Below, piece by piece: positions 27,655 to 47,920 of a stretch of DNA of 64,000 bases; the first letter of the stretch is position 1, and each line of letters opens with the position of its first letter. A program made the translations under genes and the position numbers. Source of the DNA: a virus. Location: positions 1 to 64,000 of the IMG/VR virus record IMGVR_UViG_3300022690_000671. The stretch is one strand, 5' to 3'. Below the pieces are notes generated by a model. The model searched no databases. It saw only the letters and a program-made list of their open reading frames with translations, and was not told the DNA's origin.

Positions 27655-30600
27655 ATGGAAAATCAAGAGTTATTAGACCTTCTCCAAGCGATCATAGATC
27701 GCCAACCAGAAGGCCCCGCCGATATCGCTCGTCCACAGGACGAAGCTGCGGCCCCAGAACCATTAGAAATTCTTCCTCAACCAGGAGTATCAACAGCAGA
27801 ACAACTTGCTGCGGCCCCAGAACCATTAGAAATTCTTCCTCAACCAGGAGTATCAACAGCAGAACAACTTGCTGCGGCGACAACTCAGGAAGAGGCAGAT
27901 ATTCTTGAACGCCGAGTTTCCGAAGAAAGATTTCAAGAAACAGCATCTCTCCAAGATTTTCTGAGAAGAAAATCTGAAGGACCATTAACGAGGGTAACAG
28001 GACCAAGAGAAGTACAAGAAGAAGATAATCCTGTTGTTGCTCTTCTCGGAGCTATTGATAAACGTACACAAGAAGACGAAGGCTTCTTTAACGATTTACT
28101 TTCGGGACTTTCTGAAGGTAGTCGCATCGTTGTTAGTGATGCTGCACGAAATTTTGGATTTCAAGATTTCGCCAATCGATTAGAAGAAACTGCTCCAAGG
28201 GAAAGAACAACGACACCCGCCGCAGCCATTGGTAGAGCTATTGTTGGTGGAACTAAATTCTTCATAGAAGGAGGTTTAAGTCTTGCTTTGGGTCCTGTTT
28301 TAGGTGGTTCGTCTCTTGAAGAACAATTTGGTTTTGATCCTGGAGAACAACGCGATATTCTAGATGAGATTCGTCAAGTAAAAACAAGACCTGATGATTT
28401 TACTGAAGAACAAGTTACGGATCTTGTTAATAGACGAGATGCCGCTCTTCGTAATACACAAATCTTTGAAGCTCGTCAAATTCTCTCTGAACTGACGCCT
28501 GAAGGAACCGGAATCGATGATTTCCTTGAAGGATTCGAACGTTCAAAGTTTACGATATTAGCTAATGTGGCTGCTGCTTTTGGTGATATAGATGACTTTG
28601 AAACGGCAAATAGGTTGCGAGAAATAGCATCGACAGAACAATTCGATGCCCAAAGCGCCTATGCTACGGCGGGTGAAATTGGAGCGCAGAGTATTCCTTC
28701 TGCTGCTGCTCTTCTCATAGGAGGCCCTGTTGCTGCTGGTCTCATGGGCGCGTTTTATTTTACCCAAGGTCTTGGTAGTGGACGTACCGTATACAGAGAC
28801 ATCAAGGAAAAGACGGGAGAAGAAGTCAAATTCATTGAAGAAATGACTCTGGGCATTGGGTTTGGTTTGGCTGAAATGCTAACTGAACGTTTTGGTCTTA
28901 AAGTTCTCGAAAATATTAGTACAAAGTTGGCGTTTGAACTTGGGGAAAAAGCACTTCTTACACAAATAAGAAAAGGTACACTTACTCAAGCACAAATAGT
29001 AGCAATGAGCAAATGGACCGTTGCAACGATGGGCGCAGAGGCATATGAGGAAGCAGTTAACTCAGTTGCCCAGACCACAATGATTTCCATGTTTGATCCT
29101 GAAACGGGCGTAATGGATCAAGGATTATGGGACTTTACCAAGGATTTAACTGAAGATGCACTAATTAGTGCGGCGGGTGGTGCGTTGGGTGGTGGTTTTG
29201 TCGGCCCCGCTGCTAGATTTCGTGGTCGCCAAAATATTAGAAATGCTCGTCGGGAGTTAAATGAAGCATCAGATGATGAACTCTTTAACGTACTTCAGGA
29301 TGAGAATGTTAATGAAGGTATTCGCGGTGTAGCAGAAGAAATTTTCAATAGTCGTTTGGCTGGACAAGCCCCAACGGTTGACGGCGCTAGACTACCTACG
29401 CCTCAAATGACGCCAGAATTTCGTGAGGAGTTTACTGCCGCAGCAAACGAAGCGTCTTCAGCAGATTTACAACGAGGTCTTTTAGATGGTCGGTTTACCG
29501 GAGAACAAACTGACATTATTATAGGAATTCTTGAACAAAAACCTTCGGAAGAAGCTCCTGTACGCTTTGGTCCTGAACGAGTTAGAGAACAACGCCGCCG
29601 ATTTGCGGAAACCCTGGAAGAGGCGGAACGTTTAGGTCAACCCGTTGAAGAATTAGAGCCTCGTGTTGGTATTCGTACTCAAGTTCCCGGTACGGAGCGT
29701 ATTGTGCGGCCCGGTGCTGTATTAGAAGGTGCGATTGATATTGAAGCCGCAAGGCAAGGCGCTGAAATAGTAGATGCTGAAGAGGCAGTTGTAAACCAAG
29801 AAAATGCAATTCAGATTTTCAATTCATTTATTGATGCAACAAATCTTGTAGAGGAAGAAAAAACTAGATTTAAAAATGCCATAATTTTAGCAGATGTTGC
29901 AGGTAGACGTGGCACAGAAGAAGAACTACGTTCAAGAGGTATTCTTAGTGGAGATCCCGGTAGTCCTGTTATTACTATCGGGGATCAAACATATGAAGGT
30001 GATACCGCAAAAGAAATGTTGGGCACGTTTCGGATTGGTGCGGTAACAGTAGGGTCAAAAGATCAGTTGCGTAATATTTTTCTATTGGCCAATGTTGACG
30101 AAACAGACGTACGTGATGAAATATTCCACGCATTTATGGATTTCGCTCCTGGTGAAGTTAAGCGAGACGCGATTAATGCCTTTAACGAAGAATTCGACAC
30201 TACATTTAAGACGTACTCGGAGGGACGTGAACGTATGGCCAGGGAATTCGCCAATCATTTAGGTGGTATACGTCGTACAGAACGGGGCGGATTCCTTCGT
30301 GGCTTGTTCGATACACATAACAGAGCGTGGAGACAAACTATTAATCCGTTCAAACGCGGAGATGTTGCTGAACAAGTACAGACTGGAGCATTTACAGATC
30401 TTCTTCTCAAGATAGGACGAGGTGAGGTTGCTGATCTTGTACAACCTGGTATTGTTGAGGAAATTGTAGAAGAAGCGGCAGAACCACAAGAAGCGGAAAT
30501 CCGTCAGGTTATTAACGAAGATTCTGATCGTAGAGCAGATGTTCTTCGTGAGATCGAAGAAGAAGGACGCCCCTTTGGTATCGGTGAAGTTGCGTTTCAA

Positions 30601-33600
30601 GCATTAGCACGAGGAGAACCTACAGCGACATTTTTTGCTGAACCAGGTGTTGTAGAAGGTGAGGAAGCTATTGAAGGCGAAGCCGCTGTAACACTAACCC
30701 GCGAACAATTCTTGGAGCGCTTAACGAACGAGGAAAATATTCGTCGTTTGGCTCAGAATCAGGCTAATTTAGAACAAAGAACAATTACCGTTCAGATAGA
30801 TCCCGGTGCAGCGCCAGAGATCTTTACGCCTACGAAGCTACGTGTGCCTCGACCTGGTCCCGTAACGGAAGCGGAGCGTCAGGAGACCCTGGCAGAGGAA
30901 CGTATCGCTCGGACGCGACAGCAGCAGCTACAGCGCGTGGAGGAGGCTGCTACGGTGGCGACGGAGGACCCGTTAACTGCTCTTCGAGAAGCCATAGCCA
31001 ATCAGGACGTTAATCGTATAGCAGAAATTGTCGATATTAACCCAGATGCGTTTGAAACTGCTGATCGACAAAGTCTAATAGAGGAAGCAGAAGAACAAGG
31101 TCCAGGTGTTGCGGCATTTGTAGAAAGTCAATTAGCCTTTCCTACGGAAGCGGTTGAACGTGAGCCTACTCAACTAAGAGTTCCGGTAACACCACAGGTA
31201 GATGTTCAGGAAGAAGCCGTACGCGCAGAATCAGCACAGCGTGTCTCAGAGCGTAATAAACTCGAAACACAACGCACAGAACTTATTAATCAATTTAACG
31301 CATCTGAACAATCTGTTCAGGACGCATTGGCCGCCTTTGATGAAAAATTTCCAACTTCAACTTCAGCACAAATATTGCAAACTAAGACATCTTTGGAGCA
31401 AGGCGAAATACCTGCACCTCTCACAAGAGTCAACCGAAACAACACCACGTTGGTCGCTGTTCGTGATGCTATTCAGCGGCTCAATGATGTAAACGATCAG
31501 TTAGAACAAGTTGAAACTACTATTGGTGATGTCGAAGGTCGTATGACTGGTCTAGAACTCGCCGTAAGTCCAGAAGGCACTACCCCAGAAGAACGAGACG
31601 AAATAGCAGCAATTCAGGCGTTACGTCTAGATGAAAACCAGGAAGTTTCACTCATTCGTCAAGTGTTGGGGCGTCAGTTTGTGACTGATAAAGTCTCGTC
31701 AAAATCAGTTGTCGACACAGAAAACGGCACATTTAGGATTGATTTATATCAGGACTTCCGTAATCCCGGACAATCAATAGCTTTTGTTGAGGGCACAATC
31801 GTTGAAGATGGCGACGATCCTCATATGCAAATTACAAGTCGTGGAACCGAACGTGGTTTCCGTGGTCGAGGGTTTGGTTCGCAACTTCTAGATGAGGCTT
31901 TTCAAGAAGCTACGTTCAGAAATATTCCTCTACGAAGCGACAACAACGTTTCCGCAGCGGCAGTACGTACATTCCGACGCTTTGGTGAACAAAGCAACGT
32001 TGATCTGGTTCAGTCTGATAATACAACAGAACTTCCAGACGGATCTTTCTTCCTTGCGGGGGATAATCCTAATTACGTTTTCCAACTTACTGTCTCTAGT
32101 GACGATCCGCTCCCTCCGGACTTCTTTGGAGAAGACACGCCCCTGGTAGAAAACGTTGAAGAAGCCGAAGAACAATTCAATGAAGCTACTGCTACACCAG
32201 ACGAGGATACGACACTGGAAACTGAAGAAAACGTAGTGCGTTTGCGTATGGAAGACGAACTTCGTAAGACAAGTGTAGACTTGCAGGGTCCTATTCCATC
32301 TGTAGTACGTCGCGACGATCCCAAAGAAGGACAAGAAGATACTATTCCTGATGGTGTTCAAAGTAGCGAAGAATTTGCTCAATTCTTTGCCGATACCGTA
32401 AGAGCAGAAGATGGTGGGGCTCAAAATGTAGAGGATCCTCTTAATGCTTCGGTAATGGATACAGAAGAACACGAAAGTATTTACGAGACCTACGAAAGCT
32501 TTCAGGGTAATTTCGACACTCATATTTCAACCAGTATTCCTGGATTTGTTGACGCTCAAGTTCGTGTAGTAGATGCTCTAAGTAAAATACTTGAAGAAGG
32601 TTCCGAAGTGCTTGATATAGGCGCTGGGGAAAACACATTCCTCAAAACGCTACAGGTAACAAGTAGAGCAAATGATCGAAGAATTGAAGGTTTAGGTATT
32701 GATTCATCAGCAGCTATGAGAGATGCGGCTAAGAAGCGTCGTGTTCGTGGAATCAGATTCCGACTAAGTGCGTGGGGCGAGTCTTTTGTAGATCCGGACA
32801 CAGGACGCAGAGTTAAAGTGTTCGAGGCTGATGATGGAACATATGACCTTGTATATGAGGGTATGACCTTTCAGTTCATTAGCGATGATCGCAGTGGGCA
32901 GTTAGATGAAGTTGTTCGTATAATGAAGGACGATGGTCTTTTTGTGACGTTAGAGAAATTTAATCAACAAAATGAAGATACCTATTTCCAACAGGAAAAA
33001 GCCAAAGACGCATTTAAGCTCCTATTCTATGAGCAGAGTGATATAGATACCAAGAAAAAAACTGTTCTTGGTAATGCCGCGTCTCGTGAAGGTATGCGTA
33101 GCAATATGGTAGATCAGACGACATTCGAGAATTTACTTCTCGACCGTTTTGAACATGTCGCCCAAATATGGTCATCTGGAAACTTCAGTGGCTACATTGC
33201 AACAAATGACAGAGCCAAATTCGATGCGTTTATTTCAAACCTAAGTTCGACGAATAGTGACTTTGCTGTTAAGCAAACGCCTCATTTAATAAGCGATAGC
33301 CCTGCCCAACGCGATGGACTTAATACTGCCCAGCGCACCCAGGAACAAGAAGTTGAAACTACATTACAAGGAACTCCTGTTGTGGCTCAATGGACCAAGC
33401 AAGAGACAGGGCGATACACACACGAAATAGACGGATCTGTTTGGGAGATTAAACTAGAAGAGGGCGATTGGAACACAACTCGCGATGGCGTTTCAGTACT
33501 CGATCCTACTCGTACACTAAGAGAAGCTAAAACTCTGGTGTCAGAAGCTATTAATCTCACTCGTAATGATGCACTTCAAGATGATGGCGATTTGATTCAA

Positions 33601-36600
33601 TTTAATCCTCTTAGTCTCCCTGATAATGTAGTCGTTATCGATACAAACACTGATCTTTCGAGAGGTCATATAGGAATAAACGATAGTGACGAATATTTTG
33701 CGGACCACATGGGTCATGTTTTCCGTTCTCCTATTGGTAACAGTGTTGATGAAATTACTCATTATCGTAGAGGTGCGATACTTGTCGGAAAGGTCGAAGA
33801 TGCAAAAGTAGGACAATTGTTAGACGAAAACAACGTGGAACCGGGCGATATTGACGATATTGATCTTCTAGGTCATGAGGTTTGGTCTTCGCTTGTCGAA
33901 CAACAAGGAGATACACCAGAACCATTAGCAATAGATCCTCTTGAAATTACTGAGTTGGCCCTGCGTGGACAAAGAAGCTTCTTACTTGATCTAGGAGGTG
34001 AGTTACGTGGTCAATTTCAATCTCCCGGACTTAAAAAGGCTCTTCAAGCACTTGAAAGAAACGAACGCCCCCAAGAAATACGCTCCATAGCTGAAGGCAA
34101 TGAGGAGTTAGAAGATTTCAACCGTAGACTCAAAGACTACGCTGCTCTATGGGATCAACGTGAGGCCATTTTGAACCCTATTACTCCTCTTCGCGATTCT
34201 CAGGGTAATCCTGATTGGGTAACAGCAGAGATTCTTATGTTAGATGACGATATCAATGAGATCTCTATTGATGATGATAATACGGTTGTTGGTTTTGTTG
34301 AAAACGAGAATAGCGAAACGCTTTTTTACAGACGCAACCTCGCCGATCAGTGGGAATCTGTAGAAGAGATCACGGAAGAAGAACATGGTAAGGCCCTAGA
34401 AGTCGCAGAGAAACGTTTGATGACTATGCGCAATGAAGGCACTGTTTTCACAATCAACGGCCAAGTTGTTGCAGATCTCAAAGTTCAATCTGCTTCGAAG
34501 AAACGTAAAACTGCTGAAACTGCTGCTATTAAAGCAGGGGAAAAGTATAAGGGTAAGGCCGAGGCCGCACTAAGAGCGAAAGCTGAATTGGCGTTAAGTA
34601 TTGTACCAGATGCAATGACTCCCAGCGGGGGACCTGCACTGCGTACTTTTGTGCGCTTGGTTAACGACTATAGAACTGACGTTGAATCCTATCTCAGGGC
34701 AGAAGATGCGTATCACGAGGCAAATATTGGTTTAGAAGAAAACCCTGAAGACGAGATTAATGACAACGGTCGTGGATTTCGTAGTTTCCGTAAGGACATA
34801 GAAGCATATTTCAGTGGTAAAGGTATTGCCATATTTGATGGTAAGGATCCTTCTGATCTCGCGAATCGTAGTCTTCAAAAGATGATTCATCAGGAATCTA
34901 TGGCGAGAGTGAGACTTGAAGAAAACACAACTGCCCCAGAACTAGACGAAGAAATTCAACGTCAGATATCTGATGGTGTGGTTAGGGGTTTGAGTCTAAC
35001 TGAAATTCTCAATGAACTACCAAAACAGAATCCTCAATCTGTTGAAAATCTGTACAATGTATTAGCCTCATCCATAATTGGTGTTGATGAGGATATTGAT
35101 TTTGAAGATCCTCACCTGGACATTAATGACATAGTATCGTATTCTATGTCATCGCCATCGCCTCGTGTTCGTGAATCAAGAGCACGGCGCGTAATATCTT
35201 GGTTTAAACCTAGTACTCCTAATATACACCGTCGAAATGTTATATCTACCTCGTTTCGTCGTCTCACATATCAAGCTGCGAAATACCCTGGCGCAGTGAT
35301 GAATATTGCTCGTAAAGTGTATGCTTCTCCTGAAAAAAGATTAAGGGTAGGTGGAGTTCCTAGAACTTTATTTGAAGCAAGAGAATTCGAAGAAGAGAAA
35401 TGGTTTACTAAATATCTTGATATTCAAGAAGATGCTGATAGGTGGATGAAGAATAATGTTCCTATTGGAAACAGAGAAAAAGCATGGGGACGTATTGGTG
35501 CATTACAGCGTCAACCAAGTCTCGCAACTGCGACAGATCGCGATCAAGCATTATTGGGATTTGCAAATCAATTGCATAACCTGATGGAGAAATTTGGCAA
35601 ATACTTGAGTGATGAAAAAAACGACGATTTCAACCTTCTTTCTGAAGCCCAACTTATCCAGTTTGATCCTGTAAAGGGAACGCGTTACTTTCCTCGTACC
35701 TGGAATGCTATGGAGATGGAGAGAAGAGAGTCGCAGTGGAAGGAAATCCTTCGTCGACAATCGCTTCCTATTTTCCGTAAGCGCATAGAAGAAAAACGGA
35801 AGGAATTAAATGCCGAACTTCTTGAGGCTGAAGCTGATCTTCAAAAAGCAATAGATAAGGATTCTGATTCCAGAGCCTCAAAAAGAGGTAGAGACCTCGT
35901 CGATATCGTTAAAAATAATTTACAATCTCTTGATGGAACCCTTGACGAATTTATCGATCAAATATTCAATAAGATTACAAAGGGCGATACCTTTGCTTAT
36001 GATAAGTGGTTATTTAGCGACAAGAGTCGTCTTATAAGGGAAATGCTTGATACTTTTCCTAATGCTCCTCGTGGTATCCACGCCAAACAGCGTAAGTTAT
36101 GGTGGATAAACGAAAACGAATTTGCACAAGCTAATTTCTTGGCTGATGATCCGCGTGATGCGTTACCTACGTATCTAAGAAACTTTATTCGTCAAAGAGA
36201 ATATATTAGACGTTTTGGTCGCAGTAATCAAGAACTTGAGATTACTGCTAAGGAAATGGAAATTATCGGTAAGGCCAAAGGTTATGATTCGAAAACAATT
36301 AAAAGCGACATAGAAGAATTCAAACGAATAATGGAGGGTCTTGCCGGAGTCTTGCATATCGAAAATATTGCAAGATATCACGGTGCTGATAAAGTTATTC
36401 GTTTGAGTCATACACTATCTGTTATGTCCGCGCTAACCTTTACGGGCGTCACGTCATTTATTGAAACCGCTGCGATTCCTTTAAGATTTGGTTTTGAAGC
36501 AGCGGCGTTAGGACTTACAGCACTTCCTGGCTTTGCCAAGGAGAAAATGGGTGTACCAGTAAGAGCCTTTATGAAGGGTATTGGTATTATGGTACCAAAA

Positions 36601-37707
36601 CACTTTGGGCGTAGTCAAATTATGGAAATGGGTAGAATGGTGGCTGTTATTTCCCACCATACTATTAATACACTTATTGACGAACGGGCTCTTGGTTATG
36701 CTTTAGATGACACTCAACCCAACTCAAAAGCAGCTAAATATTCTCGCAAGTTAATTAGAGGATTTTATAAAATTAATTTAGTTGCTCCAATTACAGAACT
36801 TCAGAGAGTAATGTCGGCTGTAGCTGCTCAAAGACATATTACCAGATTATTTCGTAAACCGCGCAGTAAACTAACTACCAGAGAATTGGATTTACTCGAA
36901 ATCCTTAATCTTAAAAATGATTTTGATCGTCTCCGAGAAGTCTGGCGCTCAAATAAAGCAAATTTGTTCAGAATTCGCGAACGTGAAAGTCAAGAAGATT
37001 TCGAGACGTTTCAAACAGCCATTTATCGTGCAGTTAATCAGGCAATAACGAAACCCAACGCAGCAACTAAACCTGTCTGGGGTAATAGTCTTGATCCCAT
37101 TCTTCAGGCAGTATATTCTTTGAAAAGTTTCTCTGATGGTTTTAGAGAAGGTGCCTTTGCTTTTTGGCTTGACCGTATGAGAAATGGAGATTGGCCCGAA
37201 AAATTCTCTATGATGGTGAGATTTTTAAATTTATTATTTGTTTCTTGGCTCACTGAATCGATCATTCGACCTGGAGTAAAAGTAATACTTGGTGCAGATG
37301 CTCAAGAACTAAAAGAAAGGGAAGAAAGAACAGGAAGACTTCTCAACGCAATTGCTGTAATAGATAAGACAGGATTTACAGTACAAGGCAGTAACTTTCT
37401 TGGTGCATTTTATGCCTCTAAATATGGACGATCTCCTGAATCAGGTGTCGTAGGGCCTGGAGTAACTGCTGTGTCAGATGTTGCCAAAGGATTTTACGTT
37501 TCGCTTGATAGAGGCGACCCTGCTTTTTTATGGAATGCTTTGTACAATAGCTACGTTCCAGGAGCAAAACTTCCATTCCTCAAAGATTTGGCAACCATCG
37601 AACCGGGCAAGTTTAAAGTTGATGTTCCGGCCCTACTTGGTATCGAAAAGGAATCTACTGGAGGTGGTCGACGCCGTAGTAGAACACGTCGTAGTAAAGA
37701 ACGTTAA
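27655..37707 (+). CDS. Giant multidomain virion protein, 3350 aa
   Basis: Probably the large protein ejected with the DNA. From the N-terminus: two 21-residue repeats (about 31-72); hydrophobic segments near 190-225 and 350-372; a degenerate metallopeptidase-like DEIFHAF at 821-827; a GNAT-type acetyl-CoA motif RGRGFG at 1403-1408; a class I methyltransferase motif VLDIGAG at 1652-1658 with a GIDSS acidic strand after it; helical regions; and a C-terminal membrane-like part (about 2920-2960) with conserved helical domains of the kind found in large polyvalent proteins of phages and mobile elements. The ATG has GTAAGG directly in front. No lysozyme motif was recognised. Its size is several times that of T7 gp16. 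Confidence 0.75.
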   Translation: MENQELLDLLQAIIDRQPEGPADIARPQDEAAAPEPLEILPQPGVSTAEQLAAAPEPLEILPQPGVSTAEQLAAATTQEEADILERRVSEERFQETASLQDFLRRKSEGPLTRVTGPREVQEEDNPVVALLGAIDKRTQEDEGFFNDLLSGLSEGSRIVVSDAARNFGFQDFANRLEETAPRERTTTPAAAIGRAIVGGTKFFIEGGLSLALGPVLGGSSLEEQFGFDPGEQRDILDEIRQVKTRPDDFTEEQVTDLVNRRDAALRNTQIFEARQILSELTPEGTGIDDFLEGFERSKFTILANVAAAFGDIDDFETANRLREIASTEQFDAQSAYATAGEIGAQSIPSAAALLIGGPVAAGLMGAFYFTQGLGSGRTVYRDIKEKTGEEVKFIEEMTLGIGFGLAEMLTERFGLKVLENISTKLAFELGEKALLTQIRKGTLTQAQIVAMSKWTVATMGAEAYEEAVNSVAQTTMISMFDPETGVMDQGLWDFTKDLTEDALISAAGGALGGGFVGPAARFRGRQNIRNARRELNEASDDELFNVLQDENVNEGIRGVAEEIFNSRLAGQAPTVDGARLPTPQMTPEFREEFTAAANEASSADLQRGLLDGRFTGEQTDIIIGILEQKPSEEAPVRFGPERVREQRRRFAETLEEAERLGQPVEELEPRVGIRTQVPGTERIVRPGAVLEGAIDIEAARQGAEIVDAEEAVVNQENAIQIFNSFIDATNLVEEEKTRFKNAIILADVAGRRGTEEELRSRGILSGDPGSPVITIGDQTYEGDTAKEMLGTFRIGAVTVGSKDQLRNIFLLANVDETDVRDEIFHAFMDFAPGEVKRDAINAFNEEFDTTFKTYSEGRERMAREFANHLGGIRRTERGGFLRGLFDTHNRAWRQTINPFKRGDVAEQVQTGAFTDLLLKIGRGEVADLVQPGIVEEIVEEAAEPQEAEIRQVINEDSDRRADVLREIEEEGRPFGIGEVAFQALARGEPTATFFAEPGVVEGEEAIEGEAAVTLTREQFLERLTNEENIRRLAQNQANLEQRTITVQIDPGAAPEIFTPTKLRVPRPGPVTEAERQETLAEERIARTRQQQLQRVEEAATVATEDPLTALREAIANQDVNRIAEIVDINPDAFETADRQSLIEEAEEQGPGVAAFVESQLAFPTEAVEREPTQLRVPVTPQVDVQEEAVRAESAQRVSERNKLETQRTELINQFNASEQSVQDALAAFDEKFPTSTSAQILQTKTSLEQGEIPAPLTRVNRNNTTLVAVRDAIQRLNDVNDQLEQVETTIGDVEGRMTGLELAVSPEGTTPEERDEIAAIQALRLDENQEVSLIRQVLGRQFVTDKVSSKSVVDTENGTFRIDLYQDFRNPGQSIAFVEGTIVEDGDDPHMQITSRGTERGFRGRGFGSQLLDEAFQEATFRNIPLRSDNNVSAAAVRTFRRFGEQSNVDLVQSDNTTELPDGSFFLAGDNPNYVFQLTVSSDDPLPPDFFGEDTPLVENVEEAEEQFNEATATPDEDTTLETEENVVRLRMEDELRKTSVDLQGPIPSVVRRDDPKEGQEDTIPDGVQSSEEFAQFFADTVRAEDGGAQNVEDPLNASVMDTEEHESIYETYESFQGNFDTHISTSIPGFVDAQVRVVDALSKILEEGSEVLDIGAGENTFLKTLQVTSRANDRRIEGLGIDSSAAMRDAAKKRRVRGIRFRLSAWGESFVDPDTGRRVKVFEADDGTYDLVYEGMTFQFISDDRSGQLDEVVRIMKDDGLFVTLEKFNQQNEDTYFQQEKAKDAFKLLFYEQSDIDTKKKTVLGNAASREGMRSNMVDQTTFENLLLDRFEHVAQIWSSGNFSGYIATNDRAKFDAFISNLSSTNSDFAVKQTPHLISDSPAQRDGLNTAQRTQEQEVETTLQGTPVVAQWTKQETGRYTHEIDGSVWEIKLEEGDWNTTRDGVSVLDPTRTLREAKTLVSEAINLTRNDALQDDGDLIQFNPLSLPDNVVVIDTNTDLSRGHIGINDSDEYFADHMGHVFRSPIGNSVDEITHYRRGAILVGKVEDAKVGQLLDENNVEPGDIDDIDLLGHEVWSSLVEQQGDTPEPLAIDPLEITELALRGQRSFLLDLGGELRGQFQSPGLKKALQALERNERPQEIRSIAEGNEELEDFNRRLKDYAALWDQREAILNPITPLRDSQGNPDWVTAEILMLDDDINEISIDDDNTVVGFVENENSETLFYRRNLADQWESVEEITEEEHGKALEVAEKRLMTMRNEGTVFTINGQVVADLKVQSASKKRKTAETAAIKAGEKYKGKAEAALRAKAELALSIVPDAMTPSGGPALRTFVRLVNDYRTDVESYLRAEDAYHEANIGLEENPEDEINDNGRGFRSFRKDIEAYFSGKGIAIFDGKDPSDLANRSLQKMIHQESMARVRLEENTTAPELDEEIQRQISDGVVRGLSLTEILNELPKQNPQSVENLYNVLASSIIGVDEDIDFEDPHLDINDIVSYSMSSPSPRVRESRARRVISWFKPSTPNIHRRNVISTSFRRLTYQAAKYPGAVMNIARKVYASPEKRLRVGGVPRTLFEAREFEEEKWFTKYLDIQEDADRWMKNNVPIGNREKAWGRIGALQRQPSLATATDRDQALLGFANQLHNLMEKFGKYLSDEKNDDFNLLSEAQLIQFDPVKGTRYFPRTWNAMEMERRESQWKEILRRQSLPIFRKRIEEKRKELNAELLEAEADLQKAIDKDSDSRASKRGRDLVDIVKNNLQSLDGTLDEFIDQIFNKITKGDTFAYDKWLFSDKSRLIREMLDTFPNAPRGIHAKQRKLWWINENEFAQANFLADDPRDALPTYLRNFIRQREYIRRFGRSNQELEITAKEMEIIGKAKGYDSKTIKSDIEEFKRIMEGLAGVLHIENIARYHGADKVIRLSHTLSVMSALTFTGVTSFIETAAIPLRFGFEAAALGLTALPGFAKEKMGVPVRAFMKGIGIMVPKHFGRSQIMEMGRMVAVISHHTINTLIDERALGYALDDTQPNSKAAKYSRKLIRGFYKINLVAPITELQRVMSAVAAQRHITRLFRKPRSKLTTRELDLLEILNLKNDFDRLREVWRSNKANLFRIRERESQEDFETFQTAIYRAVNQAITKPNAATKPVWGNSLDPILQAVYSLKSFSDGFREGAFAFWLDRMRNGDWPEKFSMMVRFLNLLFVSWLTESIIRPGVKVILGADAQELKEREERTGRLLNAIAVIDKTGFTVQGSNFLGAFYASKYGRSPESGVVGPGVTAVSDVAKGFYVSLDRGDPAFLWNALYNSYVPGAKLPFLKDLATIEPGKFKVDVPALLGIEKESTGGGRRRSRTRRSKER
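27745..27870 (+). repeat. Perfect 63-bp tandem repeat, two copies
   Basis: Copies at 27745-27807 and 27808-27870 are identical and are followed by the first eight bases of a third copy. They encode a 21-residue Pro/Glu/Leu/Gln-rich unit near the N-terminus of the giant protein. Perfect identity indicates a very recent slippage duplication. Confidence 0.9.
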
Positions 37708-39025: not shown

Positions 39026-40654
39026 TTACGTTTTCCCAGTCATTAAATCAGCAGCAGAAGGTTCGGTCGAGATCATTCCTAGTTCCCTCCGAACATCCGT
39101 ATAATCCTGTTTAAGGATCTTAGTAATAGATGCTTCGCTTACATCGTGATCTTTGGCTATTTTCTTTTTACCACCTTTCTGACGAGGAACATAGTTATCC
39201 TGGATAGAGATCTGCTCCCAAACGTTAAGTCTTGCAATCTCTAAATGTTGGTATTTGGTCAAGATCAAAATCTCGGCCTCAAACGCTTCACTATCTTCCT
39301 CTTTAATGAGACTGGGACGTATGCCTTTCCGTTCAAGGGCTTTGAAACGATTCTTGTCGAATATAGGCCCGGTGCGTTTTTGCCACTGAGTAAGTGTGAG
39401 ACAAGACTGGAAACCGATGAAATGTTCATCGAGCAACACGATCTCTTTGGCTTGAAAGGATCTACCATCTTTAGGAACACGGAGAATGATTGCGACTTCG
39501 ATAGGTTCCCACGGGACTTCATCAAAGATGTCGAAGGCCACATATTTTTTTTCTTCTTCATAGGCAAAGACATATGCAGCTAATTGTAAATAGTATTCCG
39601 GCCAAATCCTTTTACTAGATTTCCAGTCTACCATTGCTAATCTACCATCGACATAGGCTAAGAAGTCGAAGGTTCCAGAATAATTGTATTTGCGGCTATA
39701 TACTTTGCGTTCTGTATGGATAGGAATAACGTCGTGATTTTTCCACCACTTGGTAAATGCAATAATGGCAGATTCGGCCTCGTCATTGTCAGGTAATTCG
39801 GGATAAAGTGACGGATTATCCTCAGTTCCACCCAACACTGAAATTTTAACCTTGATAAATTTTTCTATCCATTCATGAACGATATGACCTATATCTCCAG
39901 CCTTTTCCAGAGTAACGTTTCTTGCCTTTTCGGCAGTTTGTAGCATTGCTTCCCATTGAACTTTATCGTAGTACAATGTAGGATCTACGTGATCGCGAAG
40001 CCAATTGGTCGTCTCTTTCACGGCCCACGGAATAAGACCCGGTTTATTGACTATTCGAGTAATGGATGTAGTTGAGGTTACTAGCTCTCCCGTAGATTCC
40101 AATCGATACTGATGAGAATCGTCATCATATAGTAGTACAACTTCTCCACCATATAAGACGTGTCGTTCTGCTTGATCTTTATTAAACTCAGGAATATATT
40201 CCGTCCGAGCCCACACTCTCATTTTTTCTATACCATCTATTAACCATTCATAAGATCTACCATCAATTCGATCTCCAGAATATACATAGTAATGATCAAA
40301 CGGAAGTTCCGACTCGGCCAATAGCTTCAACAACTCCTCAGTCTGTTTGACCTTGTTGAGTATTGCTATCAGAATGCTTTTCTGAAATCCTCCGGGATTG
40401 CGTCTAGATTCATTGTCGGTCATTATTCGACCAACACGTTTAGCCTCATAGCCGTGAAGATTCATGAGTTGGTCGCGATCAGGATGAGAACTACGCAACC
40501 AGTACCAATATCCTTCTATACTACGAAAAGCACCGTCTGGACAAATGAACGGAGCGTCAGCAAAGTTCGACATCCATTGACCTATAGCAGTGTTACCTTT
40601 ACTGTATATGTTGATATGATCGACGCCATCGTTCTCAGGTAAGAAGGTGCTCAT
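39026..40654 (-). CDS. NADAR domain fused to PD-(D/E)XK exonuclease
   Basis: 542 aa. Residues about 14-155 match the NADAR/YbiA pattern: WMSNFADAPFICPDG, then IEGYWYW with the conserved Glu at about 47. NADAR enzymes cut N-glycosidic bonds; some remove ADP-ribose that DarT-type toxins attach to DNA guanine. Residues about 170-460 are a RecB/Cas4-like nuclease with SGTFDFLAY (Asp 330), MVDWKSSK (Asp 343, Lys 345) and YYLQLAAY. The C-terminal 70 residues hold a helix-turn-helix-like segment (KKKIAKDHDVSEASITKIL). The ATG overlaps the DHH gene stop (ATGA). Domain assignments are by motif; the fusion is read directly from one uninterrupted frame. Confidence 0.75.
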   Translation of the reverse strand: MSTFLPENDGVDHINIYSKGNTAIGQWMSNFADAPFICPDGAFRSIEGYWYWLRSSHPDRDQLMNLHGYEAKRVGRIMTDNESRRNPGGFQKSILIAILNKVKQTEELLKLLAESELPFDHYYVYSGDRIDGRSYEWLIDGIEKMRVWARTEYIPEFNKDQAERHVLYGGEVVLLYDDDSHQYRLESTGELVTSTTSITRIVNKPGLIPWAVKETTNWLRDHVDPTLYYDKVQWEAMLQTAEKARNVTLEKAGDIGHIVHEWIEKFIKVKISVLGGTEDNPSLYPELPDNDEAESAIIAFTKWWKNHDVIPIHTERKVYSRKYNYSGTFDFLAYVDGRLAMVDWKSSKRIWPEYYLQLAAYVFAYEEEKKYVAFDIFDEVPWEPIEVAIILRVPKDGRSFQAKEIVLLDEHFIGFQSCLTLTQWQKRTGPIFDKNRFKALERKGIRPSLIKEEDSEAFEAEILILTKYQHLEIARLNVWEQISIQDNYVPRQKGGKKKIAKDHDVSEASITKILKQDYTDVRRELGMISTEPSAADLMTGKT

Positions 40655-41652
40655 ATCTGTAACCCCGCAAATTCTTTGAGAGAAATTGGAAACCCAGCAG
40701 AAGAGAAATGCCCCCCACCACCGAGAGATTTAGCTAATTTGCCTACGTCGTATAAAAGACCCTCCTTGCGACTACGAAGATTGAAAATTACGTTTTCGTC
40801 TCCTGTAATGAAATAGCTCATGGTAAAGGCCCACTCTGAATGAAGCGCCAAAGCGGCGTGGTGGGTTTCAGAAATGGTGTGAGAAAGATTCGCCAGTCCG
40901 TATGGGATACTATCCTTTATACGTTCTTGGGCAGTGAAAGTTGCGGCTTGTTGCTCTGCGATCATATCTCGATAGAGAATCATTGCTTTGCCTTGTTCAA
41001 ACAATCTAGGATAATATGGACCAACGTAACTTATTTGATTTGGTTTTTCTTCATATAGATTTTTCAAAGCTTTAAATCCGTACTTATGAATGTACGATTC
41101 CAAAGCTATTGTGTATTCGTCAGTATAAGGCAACTCCCAATTCCATAGATCTCTATCCTCTATGTGGAGTAGAATAGGAGGAATAGGTTCAATACTTATG
41201 TTAAGAGGAACATAACCATTCCAATAGTACCAGGCCAGTGTTGCCGCACTATGATCTGGAGCATATACCCATTTAAAATTGTTACCTTTGTCCGTTGCAG
41301 TAATAACGTAAACAGTTCCCCAATCATATTCTGATCTCGTCTTATTACCACGCTCTACAGTATTAAAAAATTCTTTAAATGCATCGAATCCATACTGGTG
41401 ATGATCGATAACTGTCACAGGAACGTGGAGATTGAAGAGTTGTTCTGGAGGGTAAACCCAGTCGAGGACCACTAATTCCTTTGTGTCATGAGGCAGTTGT
41501 GGTACAATCTTTCGTGATCCTCCCATGTGACCCGTCGAGAAAAATGCCAATTCCGTGTTCAAGTATTGTCTACACCACCACCAGGTGGCATATGCAGCGC
41601 CCACACCATCCAGGTCGTCGTCGTGTAGTATTACTACTTTGTGGTTTTTCAT
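40651..41652 (-). CDS. DHH/DHHA1 family phosphoesterase
   Basis: 333 aa. Motif I is LHDDDLDGVG (residues 9-17), the DHH motif is VIDHH (81-85), and a C-terminal DHHA1 motif GGGGHFSSAG lies near 313-322. These metal-dependent enzymes degrade short oligonucleotides (NrnA), cyclic dinucleotides, or single-stranded DNA (RecJ). The size fits the NrnA-like group. It could recycle nanoRNA or destroy cyclic-dinucleotide immune signals; the sequence does not decide. It overlaps the genes on both sides by ATGA. Confidence 0.85.
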   Translation of the reverse strand: MKNHKVVILHDDDLDGVGAAYATWWWCRQYLNTELAFFSTGHMGGSRKIVPQLPHDTKELVVLDWVYPPEQLFNLHVPVTVIDHHQYGFDAFKEFFNTVERGNKTRSEYDWGTVYVITATDKGNNFKWVYAPDHSAATLAWYYWNGYVPLNISIEPIPPILLHIEDRDLWNWELPYTDEYTIALESYIHKYGFKALKNLYEEKPNQISYVGPYYPRLFEQGKAMILYRDMIAEQQAATFTAQERIKDSIPYGLANLSHTISETHHAALALHSEWAFTMSYFITGDENVIFNLRSRKEGLLYDVGKLAKSLGGGGHFSSAGFPISLKEFAGLQI

Positions 41653-42269
41653 GATGACGTTAGCTGTTTAATTTCTTGAAATATTTCCTCAACCTTAATC
41701 CATAGACCCGACATAGTATGGTTATTGTCAATGACATAGTCCCATTTGTTAAAATCATCCAAGGCGATTTCCGAACGATGTTGATTGTCTCTTGCTGTAT
41801 CAACACCTTCACCTCTAAGTCGCTCCGAGGCATCCACCTTGATCAATACGCCGCCCATATCTATAATCATACGAGCTTCGTTAGGAAACCGAACATCAGA
41901 TATAACAACGTGCTGAATGGATGAAAGGTCGATAATTTTCCTCTTAACGTTTAATGCCCAGATGTTCGCATGGACACGGTTACGAAAAATATCAGTTCCG
42001 ATGAACTGAAGAAGCCAAGTTACTGTTACATCCCGACCAAAGACGGCAGACCAAAAAGGAAGAACATCCAACTTCCGGTCGTCAAACATGATCGCTGGAT
42101 CAAGACAAAATGCAGCAGCCGTAGTTTTTTTCAAAGCCTCGGCAAATGATAGGCTAACGAAATCTAGACCTTGTTCTCGGCCCAGTTCCACAATCATTTC
42201 GGCAACGGTATCTTTTCCGTGCCTGGCCTTATGGCCTATACCTATAATGAGTCTTTCTGGATTAGGCAT
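41649..42269 (-). CDS. Deoxynucleoside monophosphate kinase
   Basis: 206 aa. P-loop GHKARHGKDT at residues 12-21, ISDVRFPNEA near 123 and HRSEIALDDF near 164 match T4 gp1-like dNMP kinases, which phosphorylate dNMPs from degraded host DNA for phage synthesis. It sits with an HD nucleotidase and a DHH phosphoesterase. The start lies eight bases inside the preceding gene. Confidence 0.85.
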   Translation of the reverse strand: MPNPERLIIGIGHKARHGKDTVAEMIVELGREQGLDFVSLSFAEALKKTTAAAFCLDPAIMFDDRKLDVLPFWSAVFGRDVTVTWLLQFIGTDIFRNRVHANIWALNVKRKIIDLSSIQHVVISDVRFPNEARMIIDMGGVLIKVDASERLRGEGVDTARDNQHRSEIALDDFNKWDYVIDNNHTMSGLWIKVEEIFQEIKQLTSS

Positions 42270-42867
42270 ATGATACCTCCTGCATTTTCTTTTTGAGTTG
42301 TTTGAATCGTTTCATAAAGGAAAACATCGCCATCTTGGAGTCCATCGGAAAGATAGTAACATCATCATACGGAGGATGATTCGTATATTTAGAAATATCG
42401 TACCAGGGATGAAGGTCTCGACGTTCCGTGGTGTAGATGCGATAGTCTACCTCCTTCATCTCATCATGGTGTATCGTCATAGTTTCATGTATACCAAATT
42501 TTTGTTCTATGACGCGTTGCATATTAGCTGCAATTTCTTTGTAACGAGGCAATAGAGCTTTCAATGGAGACGGCAAATCTTGCATATATGCTTCATGAGC
42601 ATCATGTAGCAAGAAACCCATTGCTTTCCAGGGATCTTTAAACTTTCGACTCCCTAGAACACTGTGTTGTGAGACGGAATAATGCCAACTCGTTTGACCC
42701 GTGAACCTGGCAACATTGCTAAGACCAGTGGCGATATCTTGAATACGGAACATGTCTTCTGTAGGGCTCAGATAATCGATCTTAATCCCTGAGTTGGACA
42801 TGATCGATGTTTTGGCAACAACTAGATCTACTCGCTCATCTTCGATATTCTCTAAATTGCGCTCCAT
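42262..42867 (-). CDS. HD-domain phosphohydrolase (YfbR/5'-nucleotidase-like)
   Basis: 201 aa. The HD signature is spread over SVSQHS (His 68), LLHDAHEAYMQDLPSPLK (His 88, Asp 89, His 91, Glu 92) and VDYRIY (Asp about 147). This is the pattern of YfbR-like 5'-deoxynucleotidases and related phage HD hydrolases. It could dephosphorylate dNMPs. The family normally starts close to the GIKID segment, so the ATG at 42801 is an alternative start. Confidence 0.8.
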   Translation of the reverse strand: MERNLENIEDERVDLVVAKTSIMSNSGIKIDYLSPTEDMFRIQDIATGLSNVARFTGQTSWHYSVSQHSVLGSRKFKDPWKAMGFLLHDAHEAYMQDLPSPLKALLPRYKEIAANMQRVIEQKFGIHETMTIHHDEMKEVDYRIYTTERRDLHPWYDISKYTNHPPYDDVTIFPMDSKMAMFSFMKRFKQLKKKMQEVSYA

Positions 42868-43824: not shown

Positions 43825-43944
43825 CTATATGAACACGATGCCAAAAACACCTCCGAAAACAACATGTATGAAAAGTAGCAACGATAAGAATATAACAGCC
43901 AATAGACTACCTATAACTTCATATGTTTTTTGGTTCAAAATCAT
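43825..43944 (-). CDS. 39-aa single-pass membrane protein
   Basis: The ATG overlaps the DNA polymerase stop (ATGA at 43941-43944). Residues about 10-36 form one long hydrophobic segment. It ends at an in-frame TAG beyond which the frame stays open for 97 codons. It could be a small holin-like or membrane-targeting protein on its own. Confidence 0.5.
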   Translation of the reverse strand: MILNQKTYEVIGSLLAVIFLSLLLFIHVVFGGVFGIVFI

Positions 43945-46900
43945 AACGTCCGATGTTTTTTTGGTGGAACCAGGGATACGTGAACTCGCATACCAGCCTT
44001 TTTGGCGGTTTCTATCATATCCCTGGTTCCTCTTGAAGTTCCGTTCCATACGGCAATAAGAGCAGCGCCATTCTTTCCAATAGAAGACATGGCCTTTTCC
44101 GCCATAAGTTGATTACGGTTATGCCCCGCCAAAGCATTGTATGGTACTCCTAAAACGTTGCGTTTCATAAGAACGTTATCTACTTCGAAATTGTTCCATT
44201 GCGCCGCTTCTTCATGGTGGTCGATTCCTTCTCTAACTGCATATTCCTTGGCCGCAGCGTCAACTCCCTTAGCCCCGCCCTGAATAATTTTGGCAATAAC
44301 ATTACCAGAGGGATCACTATCGGCCTTTTCTATTAACTTCAAAAAAGGAGCCCCCGCAATGGCGCGTTCTATCCAAAAAATATCATTTATGTCACGCCCC
44401 CCTGCTATGATAACTTGCATAGGTTTACGTTTCACATCGCGTTGGACAATCTCTATGCTATTATAATCGAAATCAGGATCCGTTTGTTCACTAAACAACA
44501 TACGCCATCCCTCTTCAGTAAAGAATATCCCGAACTTCTTCGCGGAGTCCATGAGTTTCTTTAAATACCAGTTCGTGTTTTCGTCTGGATTGTCAGGATC
44601 GTGTTCCTCGGCCCATTTGCTATGTTGAAAAGCACGTATCTTATACACCTTCATTTCCTTGGGCGCGGCGCAATAGTGAGCAAAGCGGTCGCCTACCACC
44701 ACCTTGTGTTTCCCCGATTCGTGTATTCTCTTGGCGACCTCATATCCAGCATCAGCGTTGCGTCCTCCGTTTCCAACGCCTAGTTTTACCTTCTTGTCGT
44801 AGAGACTCAGCGGATCCTTAACTGTGCTGCGTTTACAAAACTCGTCAATTGTCCAGTCGGACGTAAAGACTTTTGTCCAATACCTCGTGTAAATTTCATG
44901 TACCTTTACAGGATCTCTTTCCAAAATGGCTGTGATGATCTCTACTACGAACTCACGACGAAAAAGTTCGATCACGCGGCTCTTGAAGCTACCGCCTTTA
45001 ATCTTTAGCCGACCCTCAACAAGAGCGTAATTCTTCTTACGTAACGAAAGCATAGAAGTTGCTCTTCCATCGAAACCAACTACGATTCCTGATGGCATAC
45101 GTTTTGTCAGAGACTCAACCCAATCCCTGTCTCCCATAGGAAACGGTCCCTTGATATCATGTTTTAATTCAATAATGGCGACCGCCTTACCTTCTGGATG
45201 ATCCTGGTTGTATACCCATTTAGGAGGAATACAAAGTGTTCCGTCCGTATTCTTACAGAGAATTCCACCTACTCCACCAACAAATGTTCCGTCTTCTGTA
45301 GAAATATCATAAACATCTAATCCTGTCTTTCTTTCAATCAAAGCTCTAACTTCACTTGACTCATATTTTATCCGCCGCGTTCCAGTAAGAGTGCCCAAAC
45401 GTACAATTGTTTCTTTATCTTTTCTAACATGTACATTAATTCTATGAGATAACTCCAGATCTCTCATCAACCACCACATCCCAGCAGCAAGTATGTGAGA
45501 CTTTGTTGTATATTGTCCAGTACCGTCTTTATAAAAATGACCATCTCCCTTCATAGCTCCGTCAAAAAAACCATGTTTCATTTCTTTTGATCCGTTCAAG
45601 ACAACGGAAGGAACTTTCTTTTGATGAGTTGCTTCATCATAGAGAAGATTATTCCATATATTATATTGTATTATATTGTAACCGCCAGTTGCTTTATTAC
45701 ATCCTGTGGATTTCATTGTATCGTAAACCATCATCCTGGTTCTATAGTATTTAAACGCAAGATCACAAACAAGTTGAAGCAAATCCTTATCTTTTTCGGC
45801 GCACGATACATTCGTCGACCAACCATTTGGTTTTCTTGAAACCCTGGACGTAGAGCCTTCTGCTACCATAATACCCAGGAGCCAACCGTGTTCATAGTCT
45901 CCTTCTTCGTTGTTCGGTAAAATAGGCAAATCGATAATCTCAAGTTTATCCCCTATAATCAAATCACGGGGTTTAACCATTTCTCCATCTTCACGAAAAA
46001 GGCTATGATCTTCAGTTACAACAACAGTACCACACATTGTTCTGACTTCAAGCATACGTTTATCTGTATTGTGACGCTTAGTATATTTGATAGGTTTCCA
46101 TCCCGATCTAGTTAAGACTTCTATTCCATCATATCCATCAAAACGACGTAATTCGTCCGAATCATGAAGAGTAGCTATAGACACAACATCAATATCATCG
46201 CCGCGACGTATGTAAACAGGTGTATAAGCAGCAACAGAGTCACAAGCTATAGGTTGTCCTCCATCTTTAATGATTTCACGAAGCATCTTTTTAAGAAGAC
46301 CCTGACCTATGGTACATACACGATCTGCTTGAATAAAATCATTAAAAATAAAGAAGTTAAAACCAAGTGCGCCATACATCGAGTTGCCTTGTATTTTATA
46401 AGCCGCTTGTTTATGATCTAACGACTCGTGTTCTTTCTTTCTACCTGTCAGAGGTTTACCATTTAAATCTTCTAAGGCTTTCATCTCGGCCTTAGTCGCC
46501 AAACGTAAATCTGTCAACTCTCTTAAAATCCTTGGGAACGTATTTAACGTGTCGGTTGACGGTTTTACATCATAGTTGAGCATAATACTTGGATACAGAG
46601 ACTCGACATCTGCATAAACTATGTTCTCGTAGACTCCTATTTTGAATATATCAGTATAACCACCAACTTCCATTCGACCCGCCTTGAATGTTGGTATGCT
46701 ATGTCGTTTTTCCAGATATTCCCTTACCATGATGTGTTCTACCTTAGTTGCAGAACCTCCTCTGGCTATACGCTCATAGGTCATTGGAACCATCTGGCTC
46801 AACGCAAAATGACTTCCGCCGAGATGTTTACCAATGGATCTGGTTTCATATACATCGTCTAGAGCATAACGCAGTACACGTTCAGGGTCTTCGTCCCAGG

Positions 46901-47873
46901 TCTTTGCTATTTGATCTCCCTGGATGTATTCACGATTTTCTGAGGCAAAACCAAAGTATTTAGCTGCACCTTTCAGGGTGTGATCTTGCATCGATCTTTT
47001 AACTACGTCAAACGCCAATACCAAGAAATATGTATCTATGATGTGTCTCCCAGCTATAGTCCAGGCCGGGTATTCTATCTGGCGTTCAGCGAAACGTATT
47101 TGTGTATCATAGAATGTGGGAACGGATCCGTCTCGTCCTATGTTAACCTCGATACCATAACGTTCGCACCTGGTCATCAGGTAAGGCATATCGAAACTCA
47201 GGAAGTTGTGGCCCTCGATAATGTCGGGGTCCAAAGCTTGAATGGTTTCGACCCATTCTTCCAACATTTCTTTTTCGGTATCAAACCTAATTGAATCTTT
47301 AGTGTGAACACCTTTTGGAGCAATATGAAAAACAACATCAAATCCTTTATTATCACACATAGATATGATAAAAATCTTATCGGTTTCTCTGGAAGCGTTA
47401 GGAAAACCTACCCTGCTATATGCCTCAATGTCGCACTGAAGACGATGGACATCATCAAACCCCCTGCCCTTAAACATGGTATTACCAGTCTGCATAAGCC
47501 ACTGAGACTCAGCAGATGCGATCATGTAGATCTCTTTACGTTTCCATTCCCTCGTTTTAAGATTCTTAAGCACTTGTTTTTTAGCTCCCCACATCTCAAA
47601 CCAGTTGTTAAACACAACAAGCACCTGGTAATAGTTGTCGCCCTCAAGATTTACCCAACGATACTGTTCGCGAGGAAAGTTATTGAGAAGATTAATATCT
47701 TTGAGCCAGAAAAACGGATAAAAGTTTTCCAAAGTGAATTCTGTACGACCAATATGATTATTCCACACCTGCATCTTGTTACCATCAGGATGCATCGCCA
47801 AACCGACAATACCCTGTCTGTCAGACTTACCGTAGAGTAGTGCAGATTGTATAGGGTCGTCTTTTAATTCCAC
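43941..47873 (-). CDS. Family B DNA polymerase with intein and C-terminal SLOG domain
   Basis: About 1310 aa: the replicative polymerase with 3'-5' exonuclease. Exo I is LQCDIEAYS (about 146), Exo II GHNFLSFDMPYL (about 221), Exo III YALDDVYE (about 336). Pol motif A is YADVESLYPSI (about 420), motif B KIQGNSMYG (about 493). Motif C, DTDG, is split by an intein between its first Asp and the Thr. After the palm and thumb, residues about 1152-1301 form a SLOG/DUF2493 domain (IIAGGRD, GGAKGVD, AGHNRNQLM, GTSRGT). A TTG at 47879 directly abuts the GGGAGG site; the GTG at 47873 is better spaced and is chosen. Confidence 0.9.
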   Translation of the reverse strand: MELKDDPIQSALLYGKSDRQGIVGLAMHPDGNKMQVWNNHIGRTEFTLENFYPFFWLKDINLLNNFPREQYRWVNLEGDNYYQVLVVFNNWFEMWGAKKQVLKNLKTREWKRKEIYMIASAESQWLMQTGNTMFKGRGFDDVHRLQCDIEAYSRVGFPNASRETDKIFIISMCDNKGFDVVFHIAPKGVHTKDSIRFDTEKEMLEEWVETIQALDPDIIEGHNFLSFDMPYLMTRCERYGIEVNIGRDGSVPTFYDTQIRFAERQIEYPAWTIAGRHIIDTYFLVLAFDVVKRSMQDHTLKGAAKYFGFASENREYIQGDQIAKTWDEDPERVLRYALDDVYETRSIGKHLGGSHFALSQMVPMTYERIARGGSATKVEHIMVREYLEKRHSIPTFKAGRMEVGGYTDIFKIGVYENIVYADVESLYPSIMLNYDVKPSTDTLNTFPRILRELTDLRLATKAEMKALEDLNGKPLTGRKKEHESLDHKQAAYKIQGNSMYGALGFNFFIFNDFIQADRVCTIGQGLLKKMLREIIKDGGQPIACDSVAAYTPVYIRRGDDIDVVSIATLHDSDELRRFDGYDGIEVLTRSGWKPIKYTKRHNTDKRMLEVRTMCGTVVVTEDHSLFREDGEMVKPRDLIIGDKLEIIDLPILPNNEEGDYEHGWLLGIMVAEGSTSRVSRKPNGWSTNVSCAEKDKDLLQLVCDLAFKYYRTRMMVYDTMKSTGCNKATGGYNIIQYNIWNNLLYDEATHQKKVPSVVLNGSKEMKHGFFDGAMKGDGHFYKDGTGQYTTKSHILAAGMWWLMRDLELSHRINVHVRKDKETIVRLGTLTGTRRIKYESSEVRALIERKTGLDVYDISTEDGTFVGGVGGILCKNTDGTLCIPPKWVYNQDHPEGKAVAIIELKHDIKGPFPMGDRDWVESLTKRMPSGIVVGFDGRATSMLSLRKKNYALVEGRLKIKGGSFKSRVIELFRREFVVEIITAILERDPVKVHEIYTRYWTKVFTSDWTIDEFCKRSTVKDPLSLYDKKVKLGVGNGGRNADAGYEVAKRIHESGKHKVVVGDRFAHYCAAPKEMKVYKIRAFQHSKWAEEHDPDNPDENTNWYLKKLMDSAKKFGIFFTEEGWRMLFSEQTDPDFDYNSIEIVQRDVKRKPMQVIIAGGRDINDIFWIERAIAGAPFLKLIEKADSDPSGNVIAKIIQGGAKGVDAAAKEYAVREGIDHHEEAAQWNNFEVDNVLMKRNVLGVPYNALAGHNRNQLMAEKAMSSIGKNGAALIAVWNGTSRGTRDMIETAKKAGMRVHVSLVPPKKHRTL
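45249..46238 (-). mobile_element. Intein with LAGLIDADG homing endonuclease in DNA polymerase
   Basis: A 330-residue insertion starts at a Ser (SVAAYTPVYI, splicing block A), has block B VVVTEDHSLF, and ends with block F/G VYDISTEDGTFVGG...ILCKN before Thr +1. Two LAGLIDADG-type motifs lie inside (GWLLGIMVAEGS and GFFDGAMKGDG), with acidic residues at the catalytic positions. Removal restores IACDTDGTLC, the polymerase active-site motif. The penultimate residue is Lys rather than the usual His. Confidence 0.92.
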
Positions 47874-47920
47874 TCTCAACCTCCCTGCTGTTGATTGGCT
47901 TGTATTAACTTATATACAAC

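Follow-up and report, generated by a model that had tools for sequence, protein, structure and literature searches.

What might a virus gain by joining a NADAR domain to an exonuclease in one protein? The gene that raises this question lies at 39026-40654 on the minus strand of the window, a stretch of 64,000 nucleotides from a virus record whose full length is 79,947 bases. It starts with ATG and encodes 542 amino acids, and the single uninterrupted NADAR-nuclease frame described in the first-pass annotation was confirmed, with no internal stop. A chimera was suspected, but GC and GC3 are uniform along the gene and match those of its neighbors, and they give no sign of one. The answer we prefer, in which our confidence is evenly balanced, is DNA de-ADP-ribosylation coupled to replication or repair; we infer the protein's activity, substrate, tethering role, and counter-defense purpose from the evidence given below.

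The NADAR half comprises residues 1-150 (40205-40654, minus strand). It belongs to phrog_652, a family present in hundreds of phages and annotated in PHROGs as unknown function, which matches residues 3-149 (E 2.6e-40). Pfam alone gives no call, since Pfam NADAR had no significant match in the window protein itself and Pfam gp30.3 reached only E 0.03, so the identification comes from the profile of relatives and from structure. A profile of 65 relatives searched against 177,635 PDB sequences gave 8bau (NADAR, E 9e-4) and 2b3w (YbiA, E 0.047) as top matches. The AlphaFold (AF2) model of this half has a pLDDT of 93, and Foldseek matched it to 2b3w, 8bau, and 8bat, all with probability 1.00, and to all other structures with probabilities below 0.1. 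The phrog_652 match, the relatives' profile, the model confidence, and Foldseek all agree with the NADAR domain that had been proposed for residues 1-160, and by profile and model residues ~1-150 are predicted to adopt the NADAR fold. A search of a viral library recovered more viral proteins annotated as NADAR.

Residues important in characterized NADARs are mostly retained. Glu47 (codon 40514-40516, minus strand), which the first-pass annotation had named as a conserved active-site residue, is invariant in the relatives (65/65) and aligns with the distal-ribose Glu, E43 in 8bau and E88 in C7 NADAR. Phage NADARs have a His at the catalytic place in the last strand (PMC11125620, PMC11543638); His121 (40292-40294, minus strand) is found there in 63 of the 65. 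Lys72 (40439-40441, minus strand) aligns with K75 of 8bau, equivalent to K115 of C7 NADAR, and this position is Lys in 59 and Arg in 5 of the 65 relatives. In C7 NADAR, K115 is not needed for catalysis but is essential against DarT1 in cells (PMC11543638). T4 gp30.3 and YbiA, which are active in vitro and do not rescue cells from DarT1 (PMC11125620), have Gln and Ala, respectively, at this position in our alignments. The phrog_652-type subfamily thus appears, by alignment, to retain a lysine that is absent from these two non-rescuing enzymes.

The place of the phosphate-binding Lys (K50 in 8bau, K95 in C7 NADAR) is more variable. It is Arg54 in the window protein (40493-40495, minus strand), Ser or Leu in the polymerase and glycosylase fusions described below, and mainly R (13), S (13), K (10), G (10), or L (10) among the 65 relatives, which counts against de-ADP-ribosylation by the window protein. 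The same variation could indicate a NADAR half without catalysis, which reads ADP-ribosylated DNA and serves only to bring the nuclease to it, with excision to follow. This seems improbable given the conservation of Glu47 and His121 (65/65 and 63/65), and Arg at position 54 is compatible with hydrolysis, as the K95R variant of C7 NADAR is active in vitro, although its rescue in cells is lost (PMC11543638).

Residues 165-430 (39365-40162, minus strand) make up a RecB/MGME1-type PD-(D/E)XK exonuclease half, which matches the exonuclease family phrog_298 (E 7e-31) and PDDEXK_1 (E 3e-6). Its nearest solved structure is human MGME1, a single-strand exonuclease (Foldseek 5zyv, E 1.5e-9), which is also its best sequence match (hmmsearch E 1e-6). 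The model has a pLDDT of about 80-92 in the core and is poor in the tail. The nuclease motifs Asp330, Asp343-x-Lys345, and Gln357-x3-Tyr361 (39572-39667, minus strand) and His260 are invariant among six exonuclease homologues, including the three residues (Asp330, Asp343, and Lys345) that had been singled out beforehand. Homologues with an exonuclease annotation occur in Tunturi_3, Pelagibacter, Arthrobacter, and Microbacterium phages, and NADAR is absent from the exonuclease relatives L084-L091. With D, DxK, and QxxxY motifs and the fold both present, residues ~165-430 are predicted to be a RecB-type nuclease. Of the RecB/Cas4-like label in the first-pass annotation, the RecB part is upheld by fold and motifs, and the Cas4 part was rejected because the exonuclease half lacks the set of four cysteines expected for an Fe-S cluster and Cas4 models match residues 314-373 only. 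The C-terminal tail (residues 431-542; 39029-39364, minus strand) has no significant Pfam match and low model confidence. It had been described as HTH-like, which is not borne out by a best Pfam match to Cro at E 0.14 and a pLDDT mostly below 50.

The fusion gene lies in a replication/nucleotide region on the minus strand, and the plus strand carries the genes for terminase, portal, and major head proteins. Its ATG shares an ATGA overlap with the stop codon of the DHH phosphoesterase gene just upstream (40651-41652; phrog_4771 E 3e-37), which is preceded in the same operon by genes for a deoxynucleoside monophosphate kinase (41649-42269; PF21448 E 4e-12, phrog_139 E 7e-43) and an HD-type deoxyribonucleoside 5'-monophosphatase (42262-42867; phrog_318 E 8e-55), and the genes overlap throughout this chain. 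Farther upstream on the same strand are the replicative DNA polymerase B gene (43941-47879; PF03104, PF00136, PF10686, and homing-endonuclease matches), which has an apparent intein and, at the C-terminus, a SLOG domain, and beyond it a PrimPol-DnaB helicase gene. The SLOG (YspA/YAcAr) domain is encoded at 43944-44432 (minus strand; PF10686 E 1.4e-5, phrog_289 E 5e-22), and its PF10686 match passes the cut-off along with its neighbors in the frame. The homing-endonuclease-type insert in this polymerase appears to be an intein inside the catalytic DTD motif (...IACD / SVAAY ... CKN / TDGTLC...).

Another possible function is nucleotide recycling, in which the exonuclease would yield dNMPs, the NADAR half would clean up dGMP bearing ADP-ribose or some other damaged nucleotide, and the neighboring enzymes would handle the products. 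Small riboflavin intermediates are also cleaved by YbiA-type NADARs, according to work cited in PMC9503650. We consider recycling quite unlikely; the overlap with the dNMP kinase, phosphatase, and phosphoesterase genes fits it, but fusions of NADAR to PolA and UDG are left unexplained. Nucleotide genes next to a polymerase are also common in phages.

These fusions were found in other phages. Scans of IMG/VR and a few phage and genome records yielded 109 NADAR clusters at 70% identity, most of them standalone proteins of ~150 amino acids. Partners of the same NADAR subfamily elsewhere include the DNA enzymes PolA, UDG, and exonuclease, either fused or overlapping, which supports a role on DNA for the window protein. 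In L007, NADAR is fused to a family-A DNA polymerase (963 amino acids; PF00476 E 1e-65), and in L044 it is fused to a uracil-DNA glycosylase (PDB match E 2e-45). A single operon in L041 (3983-8106) has separate genes, in which the end of NADAR overlaps PolA by 7 bp and that of SLOG overlaps an MGME1-like exonuclease by 4 bp. This operon is an unfused equivalent of the fusions in the window and L007, and NADAR, SLOG, polymerase, and exonuclease thus recur in varying permutations, with NADAR on the exonuclease and SLOG on PolB in the window. Among same-strand neighbors of NADAR in the 109 non-redundant clusters, SLOG occurred 15 times (fused included), UvsX 7 times, and DprA 6 times, and DNA ligase is close to NADAR at several loci and to gene 30.3 in T4; as raw counts without a background rate, these neighborhoods are suggestive only. 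Every fusion of NADAR to a DNA enzyme is represented by one contig so far. In a quick tree the NADAR fusions fall on three branches with weak backbone support, and the three unrelated partner domains are a better argument than this tree for separate origins. The gene upstream of PolA in Flavobacterium phage immuto, which has a polymerase 48% identical to the L007 one, was checked as a possible unfused NADAR and proved not to be one.

Attack on host DNA, raised in the first-pass annotation, would have the fused nuclease degrade the host chromosome. Scavenging of host DNA by an exonuclease is conceivable in principle, and no tool result pointed specifically to such a use. We regard this as extremely unlikely, because the gene belongs to an operon of replication and nucleotide genes, its nuclease half resembles MGME1, and NADAR is fused to polymerase and UDG elsewhere. 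The closest structure is a genome-maintenance ssDNA exonuclease, the relatives are ordinary phage exonucleases, and host DNA is not marked as a target.

Many NADARs have partners of a different kind. NADAR-SLOG fusions were found in L058, L164, L165, and L331 (the L331 SLOG by resemblance to relatives), a Macro-NADAR-SLOG fusion in L168, and DUF4326-NADAR fusions with or without SLOG in L024, L195, L098, and L203 (the L024 DUF4326 by resemblance to relatives). After the NADAR-UDG gene, L044 (3995-8401) has NadM-like, Macro, second classical NADAR, and NadV-like genes, with the NadM and NadV names given by sequence reading. The second NADAR is phrog_1017 in the L093 copy of this locus, and the genes may be read as an NAD-salvage and ADP-ribose cassette.

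Frequent linkage of NADAR with SLOG, Macro, DUF4326, and NAD-salvage genes counts against the proposed de-ADP-ribosylation of DNA, because these ties fit soluble ADP-ribose substrates. The NADAR half could then sense or process soluble ADP-ribose signals, gating or localizing the exonuclease when host NAD-based defense fires. Soluble targets for phage NADARs were proposed by Iyer et al. (2022), with nucleic-acid enzymes regulated via fused SLOG (PMC9503650), and the SLOG, Macro, and DUF4326 fusions and the L044 cassette agree with that proposal. We judge it unlikely for the window protein, however, as T4 gp30.3, the phage NADAR assayed so far, hydrolyses guanine-ADPr on nucleic acid (PMC11125620, PMC11833690), and the PolA, UDG, and exonuclease partners work on DNA and require no such signal.

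De-ADP-ribosylation of DNA, the function we prefer, draws on the two folds, the kept catalytic residues, the fused frame, the operon linkage, and the SLOG on PolB. A host DarT1-like toxin would put ADP-ribose on guanines of single-stranded phage DNA at replication forks, blocking polymerases. The MGME1-like exonuclease half would anchor the protein to single-stranded DNA, to ends, or to flaps, and the NADAR half, through Glu47, His121, and the basic residue at position 54, would cleave the bond between ADP-ribose and guanine, so that the base would be restored and synthesis could resume; the exonuclease half might also trim stalled ends. Published work agrees with several of these steps. DarT targets ssDNA and replication stalls (PMC7003065), DNA polymerase mutations let phages escape DarTG (PMC11481870), and reversal of guanine-ADPr in DNA was seen with every E. 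coli and phage NADAR tested, T4 gp30.3 among them (PMC11125620). C7 NADAR is more active on RNA than T4 NADAR, which its authors tentatively linked to nucleic-acid binding (PMC11833690). Tethering to an ssDNA exonuclease, polymerase, or glycosylase would provide a NADAR with such binding. The first-pass annotation spoke of removal of modified bases, which is not quite right, as characterized NADARs split the ADP-ribose-guanine bond and restore the base rather than remove it (PMC11543638). Against our proposal, T4 gp30.3 failed to rescue DarT1 toxicity (PMC11125620), and no close relatives of the whole fusion were found in IMG/VR. Unlike in a DarT1-NADAR toxin-antitoxin system, no DarT toxin gene (PF14487) was found in the 79,947-base record, which is possibly a fragment. 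Overall, a counter-defense role for the NADAR-exonuclease protein is plausible.

The window protein can be compared with several known systems. T4 gp30.3 has the NADAR fold, the phage-type His, and the catalytic Glu, its gene is near a DNA ligase gene, and its de-ADP-ribosylation of guanine in vitro is published (PMC11125620); it differs in being standalone, in having Lys at position 54 and Gln at 72, and in being only ~20% identical to the window NADAR. The DarT1-associated NADAR antitoxin (E. coli C7, G. lovleyi) shares the fold, Glu88/Glu47, and Lys115/Lys72, whereas it has Asp171 for His121 and Lys95 for Arg54, and the window NADAR is fused to a nuclease. That His121 replaces Asp171 is likely, since a His is published for this place in phage NADARs and is conserved in T4 gp30.3 and the relatives. 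The YbiA family shares the fold and catalytic Glu but has Glu for His in the last strand and no equivalent of Lys72. MGME1 and the phage RecB-Cas4 exonucleases (phrog_298) share the PD-(D/E)XK core with the QxxxY motif; the homologues found are standalone, and the window protein adds the N-terminal NADAR and C-terminal tail. The phage NADAR-SLOG, Macro-NADAR-SLOG, and DUF4326-NADAR proteins (PMC9503650; phrog_11222) have the same NADAR domain fused to ADP-ribose-related domains, in contrast to the replication and repair enzymes here.

The activity itself had been put forward as a candidate for an undescribed one. The domain is already known biochemically, since T4 gp30.3 is an active NADAR (PMC11125620), and it is the architecture that is new. 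Phage NADARs and their fusions to the ADP-ribose domains SLOG, Macro, and DUF4326 are published, as are cases of SLOG joined to a 3'-5' exonuclease and to other DNA enzymes (PMC9503650, PMC7824862). In the literature text searched, mostly outside subscription journals and without figures, no description was found of NADAR fused to polymerase, UDG, or a RecB-type exonuclease. Whether phage NADARs target DNA or soluble ADP-ribose is debated; the main survey favors soluble targets (PMC9503650), and gp30.3 gave cells no rescue from DarT1 (PMC11125620). Two findings point to DNA, the fusions to DNA polymerase, UDG, and ssDNA exonuclease, and the retained lysine that the failing enzymes are missing. 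The joining of NADAR to PolA or UDG in unrelated phages suggests that phages wire an ADP-ribose eraser into their own replication and repair against DNA-poisoning defense. More tentatively, and with somewhat less than even confidence, phages may carry a replisome-linked module in which NADAR (plus SLOG) on DNA polymerase, exonuclease, or UDG erases ADP-ribose from template guanines during replication, countering DarT1-type defense. If true, this would be an enzymatic route past DarTG, in addition to mutation of the polymerase and to AdfA and AdfB, which inhibit DarT directly. It would also give phrog_652 a function, and polymerases and repair enzymes would have a built-in lesion eraser against DarT1-type defense.

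Several other NADAR-related genes were observed in the scans. In L017 (4470-4928), and also in L027 and L043, a second, diverged NADAR-like gene (phrog_652 E 3e-12) directly follows the first, suggesting tandem duplication. A NADAR-DUF488-zinc ribbon protein is encoded in a Coprothermobacterota MAG (L242:697-1719), and NADAR is at the C-terminus of a 1481-amino-acid protein, possibly virion-packaged, in L221 (5-4447). A phrog_652-type NADAR is also present (L245:5001-5432) on a contig of >1 Mb titled Pseudomonas serbica plasmid unnamed1. In the window, a 3350-amino-acid frame on the plus strand (27655-37707), close to the structural genes, has N-terminal repeats (LEILPQPGVSTAEQLAAA) and segments that look like acetyltransferase and methyltransferase, and it resembles an injected multi-domain phage protein.
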